Assembly: GCA_937930235.1 (NCBI GenBank)
Contig: CALGLJ010000068.1
Coordinates: 1 to 32,896, forward strand
Source: an uncultured Verrucomicrobiales bacterium
GTDB lineage: Bacteria > Verrucomicrobiota > Verrucomicrobiia > Verrucomicrobiales > Akkermansiaceae
DNA length: 32,896 bases
Direction of reading: 5' to 3'
Position 1 is the stretch's first letter, and every line of letters starts with the position of its first letter. The notes under the pieces were generated by a model that saw only the letters and a program-made list of their open reading frames with translations, had not been told where the DNA came from and searched no databases. Made by a program: the position numbers and the translations under genes. This document shows positions 9,099 through 26,153 of the stretch, one piece after another.

Positions 9099-9172
9099 TT
9101 AGAATAAAAAATATATCGAATGGAGTGATTCTTATTAGTCATCTTGGACGAGGTGTGTTAGCAAGCAGAGTC

Positions 9173-10444
9173 ATGATGATAATTCGATCAATCGCGCTGG
9201 CGGTAGTCTTCCAGCTAGCGCCCTCTCTTCAAGGAGCGGAAATTAGAATGTGGACCTCAACTTCAGGAACGACGATTGAGGCCAAGCTGAAGAAAATCGA
9301 TGGAGAGAAAGCGATCCTGATCACGCCAAAGGCAAAAACGATTCCGGTGAAGATCAAGGATCTCTCTCTGGCGGACCGTGCGCACTTGGTCGAGTTCGCG
9401 GAAGCAGATCCCAAAATTATCACCGAGGTGGAATTGGGAATTCCGGAAAAGAAATCGAAGATCAAGCGCGATAGCATCAAAAAGCACGAAAAGCTCATGG
9501 GCTTTGGTGAAATCACGGACCTCGCGTTTAATGTAACCGAGAGTGAGCATTTCCTCGTTGCTTCCACCGGTCGATTTCGTGCAAAGCCTTTGATTGAGAC
9601 CGCTGAGGCGCTTTGGCACGGGATGGCATTCCAGCATATGAATTTCCGCCAAGACTGGGGGGACAAGAAAAAGATCATCATCGTAACCACTGATGAGAAC
9701 GTCTACGCCCAATTAGGAGAATGGTATGTCAAATGGATCAAGGAGAACATGGTCGATAAAGAAAAAGCAGAAACGACGGCGGGCAAAATAGCTGCTGTCT
9801 GGGGGCAAGTTTCCGGCACATCCATTTCCATCCCAGAGGAACAGCAGGAAAGGTATCAGGCCTTTCCGAGAGCGAAAATTATCCGAGTAAGAGACGGTCA
9901 GGAGCGAAATTACAAAAAAGTCTTTAGTCCTTTTCCCACGCACTTGTTAGCTGAAATGCTCATCTCAGATCAGATGGGTGGGATCAGCGAAATTTCTCCA
10001 GTGGGTTATTTCACGCTCACGACTGGGCATGCCTTTTTTAAAGAAATCCAACTGGCAGGACGATCGGTCACGAAATTGATCGATGCCGACGAATATGATG
10101 ATGAAATTTCCTCTAGCGGGGGATTTGAAAGTGGTAAATCATGGGCGAAATCATTGCGAAAACTGGTGAAGAAAGGGAAAATAACCCCAGATTTGGAAAA
10201 ATTACTTTCGGTGAAATCTGCTAGTGAACTGAACCCTGAGCAGCTCGTGCTCATGTATTCTCTTGCATACTATATGCAGAGTAATTCCTCTCGGATCGCC
10301 TCCTACGCAAAGATGGTGCAGCGCATCGAATCCAATAATCAAGTTCCAGCAGTCATTGAGATGGCACGAATCTTTGGCTTCGAATCTGTGGAAGACTTCC
10401 AAGAGGACTGGAGCAAGTTCATTAAAAGTACGAGCTTTAAATAG
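9173..10444 (+). CDS. Exported protein with N-terminal SHD1-like domain
   Basis: A 423-residue protein with a signal peptide (MMIIRSIALAVVFQLAPSLQGA, likely cut after A22). I chose ATG 9173; the frame extends 48 bases further upstream, but that would spoil the signal peptide. Residues 23-76 resemble the SHD1 domain: R-x-W-T-S-x-S-G-T-x-I-E-A, a lysine-rich strand, then IPVKIKDLSLADRAHL. The remaining 340 residues are helical and mixed, without a motif I recognise. The layout loosely recalls exported peptidase-MA-like proteins, but there is no HExxH zinc site (the closest is PFPTHLLAEML), so no catalytic activity is claimed. It is followed after 13 bases by another SHD1-containing exported protein, so the two are probably an operon. 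Confidence 0.75.
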   Translation: MMIIRSIALAVVFQLAPSLQGAEIRMWTSTSGTTIEAKLKKIDGEKAILITPKAKTIPVKIKDLSLADRAHLVEFAEADPKIITEVELGIPEKKSKIKRDSIKKHEKLMGFGEITDLAFNVTESEHFLVASTGRFRAKPLIETAEALWHGMAFQHMNFRQDWGDKKKIIIVTTDENVYAQLGEWYVKWIKENMVDKEKAETTAGKIAAVWGQVSGTSISIPEEQQERYQAFPRAKIIRVRDGQERNYKKVFSPFPTHLLAEMLISDQMGGISEISPVGYFTLTTGHAFFKEIQLAGRSVTKLIDADEYDDEISSSGGFESGKSWAKSLRKLVKKGKITPDLEKLLSVKSASELNPEQLVLMYSLAYYMQSNSSRIASYAKMVQRIESNNQVPAVIEMARIFGFESVEDFQEDWSKFIKSTSFK

Positions 10445-10457
10445 ATCTTTTTAAACG

Positions 10458-11834
10458 ATGAAGTATTTCAAAAACCTGATCGCAGGAATTAGCATTGCAT
10501 TGTCATCCTCACTCTTCGCTCAGAAAGATGGAGTAGAGCATGAGTATCGCACCTTCAAGGGGAGCAATGGCAAAGAGATTCAAGCGGTGCTTGTGAACCG
10601 AGATGATGAAAAAAGCGTTGCAGTTCTGAGAGTGAAGAATAAGGGGACGATGAAAGTCCCCTTTGAGAAACTAAGCGAAGATGATCAAGCCTATGTGAAG
10701 GCTTGGAATAAAGAGAAATCGATCTTTCTGCAATCTTGCCGTGGCCTCACCGTGAAGCAGCTCCTCGAGTTGCGTGGCTATCAAGGAGTGCGTTACGAAC
10801 TCAGTGGTAATTCCATTTTGATCCCAGGAAAAATCAACGGGAATGGAGTCAAATTCTTGATCGACACCGGTGCAGGCACGTCTTTGTTGCATTTACCAAA
10901 AGCGCAGGAGACGAACTGCAATATCGGCCCGATGGATCAAGCGGTGTGGGGAGTCGCGGGGGAATATCCTGCTGCTTGGGCTGAGATTGAGACCTTAGAG
11001 TTCGGAGGATGTGTTTTTAAGGATGAGAAAATCTTGGCGGCTGATCGGAGGCAGGGCTTACCGCCCGAGATGAAGGTCAAGGATGCGATGCTTTTGGGAG
11101 CGGAATATCTCATCCAATTGGAAACAGTTATTTCTTACAAAGAGCGCACCATTTTCTTCCGTCCTGATCGCTCGGATGCCCCAGGTGAGACTGCAGAAGG
11201 AGATGACCCATTTGGCTTCCGTATCTTTCAAGATAAACAAGGTAAGAAATTTCGCGGGAAAGTGATTGGGAAGACTGAAACCGCGATTCGACTCAAGCAG
11301 ACCAACGGGAAGACACGTCTCATTCCATTTTATAGTCTCACGGAAAAAGATGAAGAATACGCCTACGGCTGGAGCGAATCGAAGGCGACCTTCATGCAGC
11401 ATTGCCGAGGTCTCACGGTGGAAGAACTCTTGGAGTTGCGGGCCTACCAGTCATTCACTTATGAACGTCGCCGAAATCACATTTTTGTCGATGGAACTCT
11501 CAATGATCACAAGGTGACATGGTTGATTGATACTGGTGCGGACAATAGCTTACTGCATTTGTTTTATGCGGAAAAGTATGGCTGTGAAGTCGGCCCGATG
11601 GATAAGAAGGTCTATGGCATTGGGGGATCTGCCCCGGCCGCAGCGACGAAGATTGATAAGATCACTCTCGGTGATGCGGTGTTAACGAATCGGGTCTTGC
11701 TTTCGACAGACTTACAGCGCCTCAGTGAAAATAAGGAGCAAGAATGGGTCGGTCTCTTCGGTGCCGATTACATGAGAGAGCTTGAGGCTGTCATCACTTA
11801 CCGAGAGAACAAAATGTTCCTAAAACAAAACTAA
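10458..11834 (+). CDS. Exported double SHD1-retropepsin-like protein
   Basis: A 458-residue protein with a signal peptide (MKYFKNLIAGISIALSSSLFAQ). It is built as two copies of one module, offset by 222 residues: an SHD1-like domain (about 29-80 and 253-303), the linker CRGLTV-x-x-LLELR-x-YQ (94-109 and 316-331) and a retropepsin-like aspartyl protease domain. Both protease copies keep the active-site motif (FLIDTGAGTS with D136; WLIDTGADNS with D358), the GPMD-x-x-V-x-G segment and the C-terminal hydrophobic-Gly motif (LLGAEYL; LFGADYM). Retropepsin domains normally dimerise, each giving one Asp, so this chain could form its own active site. The substrate is unknown; an exported proteolytic or peptide-binding role is inference. 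It is 13 bases behind another SHD1-like gene. Confidence 0.85.
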   Translation: MKYFKNLIAGISIALSSSLFAQKDGVEHEYRTFKGSNGKEIQAVLVNRDDEKSVAVLRVKNKGTMKVPFEKLSEDDQAYVKAWNKEKSIFLQSCRGLTVKQLLELRGYQGVRYELSGNSILIPGKINGNGVKFLIDTGAGTSLLHLPKAQETNCNIGPMDQAVWGVAGEYPAAWAEIETLEFGGCVFKDEKILAADRRQGLPPEMKVKDAMLLGAEYLIQLETVISYKERTIFFRPDRSDAPGETAEGDDPFGFRIFQDKQGKKFRGKVIGKTETAIRLKQTNGKTRLIPFYSLTEKDEEYAYGWSESKATFMQHCRGLTVEELLELRAYQSFTYERRRNHIFVDGTLNDHKVTWLIDTGADNSLLHLFYAEKYGCEVGPMDKKVYGIGGSAPAAATKIDKITLGDAVLTNRVLLSTDLQRLSENKEQEWVGLFGADYMRELEAVITYRENKMFLKQN

Positions 11835-22445: not shown

Positions 22446-24497
22446 ATGATGCGAGATACAATGTGGTTGGCGATGGCTTTGTTTTTTATCTTGCCGTGTG
22501 TCATGTCGGCTGAGGAGCCATTGCGCTCCATTGCGGAGGTGCGAGAACTGTCTCCCGAGCGAGCAGCACAAAATCTCAAGGTTGATATCGAAGTTCAAAT
22601 TTTGAAAATCACGTCACCTGGATATGGCGGTTTTGTGACAGATGGGAAAATGGGAATCTACATGTCATTCAGACATGGATTTACCTCATCTGCGCTCTAC
22701 TCCGTGGGAGATCGGATTCGTTTGCTTGGGTATACGGTGCCTGGTCGTTTTATCCCACATATTGAATCTCGGAAGATTACAATTTTAGAGAATGCTCCTT
22801 TGCCCGATGCTCTTCAGATCGAGGAAAAGATATTCTTTGACCCCGAGTTGGACTGCCAATGGGTGACCTTCACCGGCATCGTTTTAGGAAGTATGGACGC
22901 TTGGCATCCTACGCAGATGGGGATTCAGCTAAAATACCATGAACATACCGTGAATCTGTTGGCGAATCGTCAGGATTTTTCTGAAAAGTTCATCGATAGT
23001 CTCGTTCACCGGAAGGTGAGAGTGCGGGCGATTGCGGCAACGAAGGTGAATCAGAAAAGGCAGATGATGGCGCGCTTTTTTCACGTCGCAAAGGAGTCTG
23101 ATCTGATCTTGCTCTCGAAGGAGGAGCCAAATTTTGTCTCGATTGATGAACTCCTCAGCCGGAAATCCGCGCATCAATCACAGCAGGTGAAGGTGAAAGG
23201 ACAGGTGACTCATGTGAGTGAGCGGGGAATTTATCTTCGAGGGGAAAAAGGATGTCTCTATTCGAAAACACGGCCAATTCAGGAAATTGAGTGTGGAGAT
23301 TTGGTGGAGATGGTGGGTCTGGTAGAGGCTGGACCAGTGACCCCCATTCTCTTTGCCAGTGATATTCGAAAGAAAACCGTTGATGATGTTGTCCCGCCGG
23401 TGCCGGTGGAAATTGAATTAAACGAAAAATATTCTCCTTCGCTCAACTATGAGCTGGTGACTCTGAAGTGTTGGTTACGCAAGTTACGTACGACTGAGGA
23501 TGGGCTTGTGTTTCAGTGTGAAAATTCGGGATATGATTTTGAAGTACGAATCAAAGGAGAGAAAGAGGCGATTGATCGTTTTGAAATCGGATCCGAGTTG
23601 TTATTGACTGGGATCGGGGAGCTTTCATCGACGAATTTTTTTCTTCCCTTCGGAAGTCAGGTAGATCGTTTTCAGCTTCAATTAAGAAACCTTCAGGATA
23701 TTAAGGTGTTGAGCGCTCCTCCTTGGTGGTCGATTAAAAAATTAGCAGTGATCCTAACGCTCATGGGCTTGATTGGGGGTGCTGCTTTTATCTGGGCCAT
23801 GACCTTGCGTTCTCGGATTGCGTATCAAACGGTTGTGATTAGTGAGCAGGTGCAGCGTGAGACGGTCATGGAAGAGCGACAGCGGCTTGCCAGAGATCTG
23901 CACGATACCTTACAGCAAAATATGACTGGCATTTCCATGCAGCTCGCACATGCGCAGCGGCATGTGGACGTGGATGATCATGACTTGACGAAAAGCGCCA
24001 TTAACCGAGCTCAAGAAATGTTAGATCAATGCCGGGATGAAACGCGAGAGTCGATTTCTCGCCTCCGGAATTCGACGACGACGCGTGGTTCCCTGGCCGT
24101 GCTCGTAGAAGATACCATGATTCATGATGCGAAGATTGCTGGAGTGACCTTGAAGATAAGGACTTCCGGAGAGCCTTATCCGTTGGATCCTTTTTATGTG
24201 AATCATGCTTTGAAAATTGTGCGCGAGGCATTTTCAAATGCTTTACATCATTCGGAATGTGAGCGGCTCGATGTCTCCTTTCAATATGGTGAGGACGATC
24301 TTGAGATCAGCGTGATTGATGATGGGAAAGGGTTTGATCCTAAGCTGGGTTCTCCCCAGGGGCATTACGGCCTAGTGGGAATGAATGAACGTGCGGAGCG
24401 CATCGATTCCGAACTCTCGATCGAATCAGAACCGAAAAAGGGAACGACGATTGTTTTGAAGATTCCGGTTTCACTTTCTCGCTCAAAGGATTTATAA
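22446..24497 (+). CDS. NarL-family sensor histidine kinase with OB-like exported sensor
   Basis: A 683-residue kinase with a signal peptide (MWLAMALFFILPCVMSA), a sensor region to about 425, one transmembrane helix (432-452) and a HisKA_3-type kinase core. The phosphorylated histidine is probably H486 in EERQRLARDLHDTLQQ (476-491). The ATPase domain has REAFSNALHHSE (593-604), DDGKGFD (625-631) and GHYGLVGMNERA (639-650). The sensor has four beta-rich, OB-like segments, apparently two types alternating: about 28-120, 131-223, 231-320 and 329-422. Segments 1 and 3 share (S)I-x-E-(V/L) and GD-x-(I/V)-x-x-x-G; segments 2 and 4 share a motif like L-x-x-x-x-V-T. The ligand is unknown. The regulator starts 8 bases downstream. 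Confidence 0.9.
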   Translation: MMRDTMWLAMALFFILPCVMSAEEPLRSIAEVRELSPERAAQNLKVDIEVQILKITSPGYGGFVTDGKMGIYMSFRHGFTSSALYSVGDRIRLLGYTVPGRFIPHIESRKITILENAPLPDALQIEEKIFFDPELDCQWVTFTGIVLGSMDAWHPTQMGIQLKYHEHTVNLLANRQDFSEKFIDSLVHRKVRVRAIAATKVNQKRQMMARFFHVAKESDLILLSKEEPNFVSIDELLSRKSAHQSQQVKVKGQVTHVSERGIYLRGEKGCLYSKTRPIQEIECGDLVEMVGLVEAGPVTPILFASDIRKKTVDDVVPPVPVEIELNEKYSPSLNYELVTLKCWLRKLRTTEDGLVFQCENSGYDFEVRIKGEKEAIDRFEIGSELLLTGIGELSSTNFFLPFGSQVDRFQLQLRNLQDIKVLSAPPWWSIKKLAVILTLMGLIGGAAFIWAMTLRSRIAYQTVVISEQVQRETVMEERQRLARDLHDTLQQNMTGISMQLAHAQRHVDVDDHDLTKSAINRAQEMLDQCRDETRESISRLRNSTTTRGSLAVLVEDTMIHDAKIAGVTLKIRTSGEPYPLDPFYVNHALKIVREAFSNALHHSECERLDVSFQYGEDDLEISVIDDGKGFDPKLGSPQGHYGLVGMNERAERIDSELSIESEPKKGTTIVLKIPVSLSRSKDL

Positions 24498-24504
24498 TCA
24501 TAGA

Positions 24505-25131
24505 ATGAAGAAGATTCGAGTTCTTATCGCTGACGATCACGAGATGGTATTGCGGGGATTAGCCGATGGGATTCAAACCCATCCGGACTTTGAACTCGCT
24601 GGCGAGGTTTCGACAGGTCCAGATGCGATTGAAGCTTATAAAGAGAAGATGCCGGATGTCGTCCTGCTTGATTTTAGAATGCCGGGTGCCAACGGAGATC
24701 ATGTGACTGAGGAAATCATCGCTTTCGATGCGGAGGCGAAGGTCATTATGCTGACGAGTTATGAGTGGGAAGAGGATATCTGGCGTGCGGTCATTGCAGG
24801 GGCGCTGGGTTACTTACCGAAATCTTGTCATATGGATGAGATTTACAAAGGGATCAGGGAAGTCGCGAAAGGGAATCGTTATTTTCCACCCAATATTCTT
24901 CAGAAAATCGAAGCACGAGAAAAACGGGAGACCCTGACGGCACGAGAGGAGCAGGTTCTCATGCTGCTGGCTGGGGGCTTTAGTAATAAGGAAATTATGG
25001 GGCATTTGAACTTGTCCACGGGGACGGTGCGGACTCATGTTTCGAGCATTTTAGTGAAATTAAATGCGAATGATCGTACTCACGCGGTGGTAAAAGCAGT
25101 GCGTCGCGGGATGGTTCACCTGGATGTTTAA
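24505..25131 (+). CDS. NarL/FixJ-family response regulator
   Basis: A 208-residue two-domain regulator. The receiver domain (1-120) has acidic residues D10-D11 (IADDHE), the phosphorylation site D56 (VVLLDFRMPG), T84 (MLTSYEW) and K106 (GYLPKS). The LuxR-type helix-turn-helix is at about 143-205: LTAREEQVLMLLAGGFSNKE (two overlapping parts), then LNLSTGTVRTHVSSILVKL. It is the cognate partner of the kinase just upstream (7-base gap). The next gene, 41 bases downstream, codes for a double retropepsin-like protein and may be in the same transcript or be a target. Confidence 0.95.
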   Translation: MKKIRVLIADDHEMVLRGLADGIQTHPDFELAGEVSTGPDAIEAYKEKMPDVVLLDFRMPGANGDHVTEEIIAFDAEAKVIMLTSYEWEEDIWRAVIAGALGYLPKSCHMDEIYKGIREVAKGNRYFPPNILQKIEAREKRETLTAREEQVLMLLAGGFSNKEIMGHLNLSTGTVRTHVSSILVKLNANDRTHAVVKAVRRGMVHLDV

Positions 25132-25172
25132 ACCTTGCTTGAAGATACGGGAAATTGACCTATCTTGAATCG

Positions 25173-26153
25173 GTGATTCGCCGTAGATTTAATCGCGCCC
25201 TTCTGGGGACGTTGGCATGTGCTTTCCTGACTCAATGTTCTTCGATTCAAAGGGAGCCAGGGAGAGCCGGAAAGCTGAAGTCGATCGGTTATATTCCACT
25301 CAAGCTTCAGAAAGTTTCAGGAGATTCTCGTTATTCTGGAACCTTTGGGGTCAATGGGCTGGACATGCGGTTCTTGATTGATTCGGGGGCAAATAGCACT
25401 GATGTGTCAGAGGACTACGCGGATCGTGCCAATTTAAAACGAGATCATTCCGTGTCCGTTGTGAGTCGAGGGGCTCTTGGTCGAGCCGTGAAAAGTGGCC
25501 TTGGTCGGGGAACGCTCCAGATGGGGCCGATCTATGCGAGAAATTTTCCATTTACCATCGGGCCTCGCCCACAAAGGAGGACGGCCACTAGTCGCTATGC
25601 GGGGCAGATCGGACTCGATGCGATGTCCGCAGCCGGTTCTTTGATCGATATCCCTCGTGGGACGATGTGGGTGCCGAGTCATCAAGCTCTTCAGAAAACG
25701 GGGGGGCGGCCCAGCCGTCTAGGAAGGCAGGCTGGACTGGGGTTGCATGCGCTGAGGCTCTATCCGGCTGGAAAATTTCCTCATCTCATCCTTCAGGGAC
25801 GAGTCGATGGAGACCGCATGACCTGGGTAGTGGATACGGGAGCAGAAGTTTCGGTCATGGCTGAGTCGAGTTTTCGAAAGCTCAATTTACCGAGTGAGGT
25901 CACCAACTCCCGGATGATTGATGCGGCTGGAGACAAGGTGAGAGTGCGTGCTGCGACTCTTTACAATGTGCAGTTCCCGGGCGTGTTGGTAAATCGTTTT
26001 GATCTCATTGTGGCTCCCTTAGCAGATGTCCAGAAGGTCTTTAAAGATTCTCAAGGCCGATCAGTCGATGGCATTTTGGGAATGGATTTTCTCACGCATT
26101 CGAAGGCGCTCCTAGATCCTGGATCCCGTATTCTCTATATGGGGAAACCATAA
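25173..26153 (+). CDS. Probable lipoprotein with two retropepsin-like aspartyl protease domains
   Basis: A 326-residue protein starting at GTG 25173, which gives a clean signal peptide (RRRFNRALLGTLACAFL) ending in LTQC, an imperfect lipobox. TTG 25155 is an alternative start. Two retropepsin-like domains follow. The first has FLIDSGANS (catalytic D70) and the later hydrophobic-Gly segment QIGLDAM. The second has WVVDTGAEVS (D221) and ILGMDFL. A roughly 40-residue basic linker joins them. Each D(T/S)G domain normally works as a dimer half, so the pair might fold as a single-chain protease in the envelope. Substrates are unknown. It lies 41 bases behind a two-component system. It resembles the duplicated protein at 10458-11834 in plan but has no SHD1-like domains. 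Confidence 0.8.
   Translation: MIRRRFNRALLGTLACAFLTQCSSIQREPGRAGKLKSIGYIPLKLQKVSGDSRYSGTFGVNGLDMRFLIDSGANSTDVSEDYADRANLKRDHSVSVVSRGALGRAVKSGLGRGTLQMGPIYARNFPFTIGPRPQRRTATSRYAGQIGLDAMSAAGSLIDIPRGTMWVPSHQALQKTGGRPSRLGRQAGLGLHALRLYPAGKFPHLILQGRVDGDRMTWVVDTGAEVSVMAESSFRKLNLPSEVTNSRMIDAAGDKVRVRAATLYNVQFPGVLVNRFDLIVAPLADVQKVFKDSQGRSVDGILGMDFLTHSKALLDPGSRILYMGKP

Follow-up and report, generated by a model that had tools for sequence, protein, structure and literature searches.

Pepsins are widely proposed to have arisen by duplication and fusion. The window analysed here, a stretch of 32,896 nucleotides from an uncultured Verrucomicrobiales bacterium (contig CALGLJ010000068.1), carries a gene whose product contains two retropepsin-like domains, each preceded by an SHD1-like domain. 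This gene, called the double retropepsin below, raises the question of whether its two lobes pair within one chain or between chains, and of how such an arrangement came about.

Domain composition of the double retropepsin

The double retropepsin gene, defined by its reading frame, Pfam matches and orthologues, occupies 10458-11834 on the forward strand, starts with ATG and encodes 458 aa, in which an SHD1-like domain, a CRGLTVxxLLELR helix and a retropepsin-like domain follow one another twice. A hydrophobic stretch at about residues 8-22, ending in SSLFAQ and judged by eye only, marks a probable Sec signal (residues 1-22, 10458-10523), and its terminal AQ recurs in orthologues. SHD1-like domain 1 (residues 29-88, 10542-10721), modelled with strands and a helix, is followed by helical linker 1 with CRGLTVKQLLELR (residues 89-112, 10722-10793; modelled helices 85-94 and 99-105) and by retropepsin-like lobe 1 (residues 113-239, 10794-11174), which holds the active-site motif D136-T-G (10863-10871) and the psi-loop motif L212-L-G (LLG, residues 212-214, 11091-11099). 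The same order is repeated in SHD1-like domain 2 (residues 253-310, 11214-11387), helical linker 2 with CRGLTVEELLELR (residues 311-334, 11388-11459), likewise helical in the model, and lobe 2 (residues 335-456, 11460-11825), which holds D358-T-G (11529-11537) and L433-F-G (LFG, residues 433-435, 11754-11762). The two DTG motifs are offset by 222 residues, and each lobe has its own hydrophobic-hydrophobic-Gly psi-loop motif.

Alignment of one half with the other gave 79 identities over 207 aligned residues (38%), with a score of 385 versus 63 for the best among 1000 shuffles, which demonstrated the duplication computationally. The preliminary description had proposed such a duplication with both motifs intact, and all of its coordinates and motifs proved correct. 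It had also called for a check against retropepsin profiles, and PF13650 matched two stretches of the product (E 1.7e-21, 77.1 bits against a cut-off of 24.3) and passed the curated cut-off in each half taken alone; both lobes were assigned by PF13650/PF13975 and by predicted fold. The NCBIfam model TIGR02281 (clan_AA_DTGA) was narrowly missed (56.2 bits, cut-off 57.95), and PF00026 (Asp, A1) was absent among the Pfam matches up to E 1. The proposed SHD1 identity held for the whole protein (PF03983, 24.6 bits, cut-off 23.7) but not for the halves taken alone (15.0 and 11.8 bits), and on Pfam evidence the assignment is therefore marginal. A comparison by hhalign of the family profile with SHD1-DUF1570 proteins (97.7%, E 1.9e-12) backs it, and PF03983 was matched at E 0.01 in 8 of 14 orthologues. 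The SHD1 of SLA1 (2hbp), a yeast protein without a protease, showed a weak sequence relation to the SHD1-like part (E 0.1), and a single-sequence search of solved structures with the SHD1 fragment returned HtrA matches at chance level only. In yeast, the Sla1 SHD1 binds NPFxD-type peptides; our literature search found no paper on SHD1 in Verrucomicrobia.

Conservation of the two modules and of the partner gene

Matches to the double retropepsin at E 1e-20 were found in 60 of 289 genomes of the same order; 56 of these 60 genomes held an orthologue-like gene, and the other 4 a divergent or degenerate one. Since full-length matches in another sample, of 289 genomes from across the phylum, came solely from the window's own family inside that order, the gene family looks order-restricted. 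Complete orthologues all have exactly two modules, arranged SHD1-retropepsin-SHD1-retropepsin. Odd open-frame lengths had hinted at chains with at least three modules, and reading of the frames showed otherwise. Two loci (L076:860-2740 of G132 and L077 of G241) encode doubles some 625 residues long, in which an insertion of roughly 150 residues separates the modules and both DTG motifs are kept.

We compared 55 distinct two-module chains from the order, comprising 53 orthologue-like chains and 2 with a long insert between the modules. D[TS]GA was retained in both lobes of all 55 chains, and the Asp was kept at 110 of 110 motif sites, against a mean column identity of 53% in the family; the two motifs are thus co-conserved. 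Among the aligned orthologues D136-T-G did not vary, nor did the Asp of the D358 motif. The Ala after DTG is likewise invariant in both lobes, and an Ala at this position has been described as a hallmark of the retroviral type (PMC12239564). A degenerate half, with one dead lobe, was looked for and found in none of the 55 chains. Lobe-to-lobe identity within a chain ranged from 29 to 60% (median 44%), and SHD1 was retained at both positions in all chains. Among SHD1-retropepsins and related chains with one or two modules, four had lost the catalytic Asp motif and are possible pseudoproteases, and five single-module relatives had kept it. Motif loss in relatives indicates that the conservation of both motifs in the doubles is not owed to an inability to lose them.

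Directly upstream of the double retropepsin lies a conserved partner gene at 9125-10444 (+; probable start ATG 9173, profile match 9185-10441), with 13 bases between its stop and the start of the protease gene. Its product looks exported and has an N-terminal SHD1 followed by a conserved body without a Pfam family. PF03983 was matched in 6 of 11 relatives of this protein, the SLA1 SHD1 (2hbp) matched it at E 0.0011, and hhalign of its profile against SHD1-DUF1570 proteins gave 97.6% across the SHD1 part. We do not claim the body as DUF1570, because the alignment did not extend beyond the SHD1 part and a few residues after it. Four SHD1-DUF1570 proteins from the same order have an intact HExxH and a downstream EGxAE, and SHD1 is thus attached to probable exported metallopeptidases in this order as well.

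The partner gene was present in 54 of the 56 double-retropepsin genomes versus 8 of the 233 others (Fisher p 3e-47, uncorrected for kinship). Where both genes stood on one contig, they were no more than 350 bases apart in 46 of 50 genomes, with the partner upstream on the same strand in 30, convergent in 9 and divergent in 7. Because adjacency survived changes of orientation, a functional link is favoured over an operon retained by descent alone. The partner and the double retropepsin probably constitute a two-gene SHD1 system, in which the partner may be cleaved by the protease, regulate it or bind it.

Predicted fold and pairing of the lobes

The AlphaFold2 (AF2) model of the full chain, built from a 14-sequence alignment, had a mean pLDDT of 85.8 and a pTM of 0.78. 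When this model was compared with solved structures by Foldseek, 9iy9 ranked first, followed by plasmepsins and renins. VIA-align superposed both lobes together on 9iy9 (Z 16.4, 257 residues, model residues 104-456), on plasmepsin I (Z 13.7, 239 residues, 3.4 A) and on pepsinogen (Z 13.5, 240 residues). Since a lobe comprises about 120 residues, alignments of such length require that the two lobes be placed approximately as they are in pepsin. A second model, of a 37%-identical orthologue from another taxonomic family (pLDDT 79.9, pTM 0.73), is a replicate and not fully independent, as the input alignments of the two overlap in sequences; it gave a Z of 16.5 with 9iy9 and of 14-15 with pepsins, among them proplasmepsin (Z 14.9, 243 residues, 3.3 A). 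Across both models, about 240-259 residues spanning the two lobes superposed on pepsins with Z of 13-15 and on 9iy9 with Z of 16, values to be read with the bias of AF2 to known folds, as it was trained on many pepsins and may prefer pepsin-like packing. A two-lobed single-chain fold of the 9iy9 and pepsin types, with one Asp in each lobe, was thus found by computation, in predicted models only. A self-contained pseudo-dimer had been suggested in the preliminary description, and the models of two orthologues do predict a pepsin-like two-lobed monomer, so that pairing within the chain is well supported at the level of prediction.

We consider it likely that the double retropepsin is an exported aspartic endopeptidase of clan AA (PF13650) working as one chain, in which D136 and D358 share one site, an SHD1 serves as a tether and the whole arose by duplication of a module. 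Lobe 1 (113-239) and lobe 2 (335-456) would face each other as in pepsin, with the middle SHD1 and its helical linker forming a long tether that loops outside. From the models we infer that each lobe would contribute one Asp to a single, shared and catalytic active site. Duplication of the SHD1-retropepsin module would have produced the double gene, and the single form, presumably an obligate homodimer, would persist in the same order. More tentatively, the SHD1 domains might act to recruit the SHD1 protein encoded alongside (9125-10444), or else a shared exported target.

It is unlikely that the lobes pair between chains instead, giving a dimer with two active sites and no pairing within the chain. 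RloA, an exported bacterial retropepsin, is a homodimer of one-lobe chains (PMC12239564), single-module SHD1-retropepsins exist, and conservation of both motifs would fit such a dimer equally well. However, the two monomer predictions already pair both lobes within the chain, and the orthologues always have two modules, never one or three. The earlier suggestion that the middle SHD1 could force intermolecular pairing also became less likely, as the monomer models do not bear it out. Rather more room is left for a variant that keeps the fold of the single-chain protease and makes the middle SHD1 a lid, which would block the cleft as in a zymogen until the partner acts as a trigger, but this too is on the unlikely side. 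The retention of SHD1 at both positions, though other tandems of the phylum do without it, would suit a lid, as would a partner that also has SHD1 and tracks the protease across genomes; such a role is one that we infer purely from these patterns.

The double retropepsin could also lack catalysis, by analogy with exported retropepsin-like folds, which can lose activity, and with the relatives that did. A two-lobe binding protein in which the protease fold is a non-proteolytic scaffold is nevertheless quite improbable. Plant 7S globulin and xylanase inhibitor folds, which are aspartic protease folds without catalysis, were among the structure matches, and related SHD1 chains lost the Asp, but a scaffold would sit poorly with an Asp kept at every motif site of the 55 chains in a family of such modest column identity.

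Relation to other tandem retropepsins and origin of the duplication

The preliminary description had pointed to one motif per chain in intracellular bacterial retropepsin-like proteases (PerP, SpoIIGA, APRc type), but the premise that two motifs in one chain are unusual for bacteria had to be given up, given a solved tandem (9iy9), the chains sampled across the phylum and a second tandem in the window. Of 20 sampled PF13650 chains, 15 had two D[TS]G motifs, 2 had an altered second motif and 3 had one. The second tandem of the window, at 25155-26153 (+), is a single chain with DSG and DTG motifs and a lipobox-like FLTQC, without SHD1, and is the only PF13650 protein found in the genome besides the double retropepsin. 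A histidine kinase/response regulator pair (22446-25131) immediately precedes it. Double retropepsins on a single chain are thus already known, and they are common in the phylum. Three one-lobe PF13650 proteins with a long charged, coiled-coil-like N-terminal region may represent an obligate-dimer form in the phylum. What sets the double SHD1-retropepsin apart is the interleaved SHD1, the partner gene and, probably, a separate duplication of the whole module; since the repeated unit takes in SHD1, about 100 residues lie between its lobes.

Among solved structures, the best sequence match was 9iy9 (E 2.4e-10), a putative endopeptidase and exported protein of Bacteroides fragilis, which is likewise a single chain with two retropepsin-like lobes and a DTG in each. 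Its lobes are adjacent, however (matching stretches 164-280 and 302-409), leaving no space for an intervening SHD1, and its second lobe matches the family profile weakly; our literature search found no paper naming it. The other tandem PF13650 proteins of the phylum, including that at 25155-26153, share the two D[TS]G motifs and are exported or lipoprotein-like, but no SHD1 was seen in them, their motifs are spaced by about 130-150 residues instead of 222, and the tree places their lobes apart from the cluster of SHD1 doubles. Family A1 pepsins, including the bacterial shewasins, have the fold that is predicted here, in which each of two lobes supplies one Asp. The bacterial pepsins known to us lack signal peptides. 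Pepsin lobes have only short motifs in common (PMC2761423), whereas those of the double retropepsins are 29-60% identical with DTGA in both, and no A1 Pfam match was found. RloA of Pseudomonas (PMC12239564) and APRc of Rickettsia (PMC4140852), both characterised enzymes, are also bacterial retropepsin-like aspartic proteases, but with one lobe per chain. A DTG motif is also present in Amuc_1434, an aspartic protease of Akkermansia (PMC6982040).

In a tree of the protease lobes, the two main taxonomic families were united lobe by lobe, their N lobes forming one group and their C lobes another (support 93/79 and 99/92), indicating that the duplication is older than the split of these families; the lobes of a third taxonomic family did not resolve. 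In a wider tree, which had moderate support and some long branches, the SHD1-double lobes clustered together (90/95), apart from the lobes of other tandems, and a topology constrained to unite the lobes of all SHD1 modules in a single clade was not rejected (p-AU 0.604). A further duplication and fusion of the SHD1-retropepsin module, separate from that of other tandems, is the simplest reading and would have moderate support from these trees, while it is possible that the single-module relatives are doubles reduced by loss. We give an even chance to the broader proposal that a homodimeric SHD1-retropepsin was duplicated and fused within this order, independently of the older tandems of the phylum and with single-module relatives surviving, in a second event like the one proposed for the origin of pepsins, and that the fused enzyme became half of a two-gene exported SHD1 system.

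In pepsins the intermediate stage of this process has been erased, the lobes being alike only in short motifs (PMC2761423). With lobes up to 60% identical, surviving one-module relatives and the tandems of the phylum, the step from dimer to single chain is open to study with natural proteins, and the almost fixed partner gene offers a testable handle on the role of an exported SHD1 protease.
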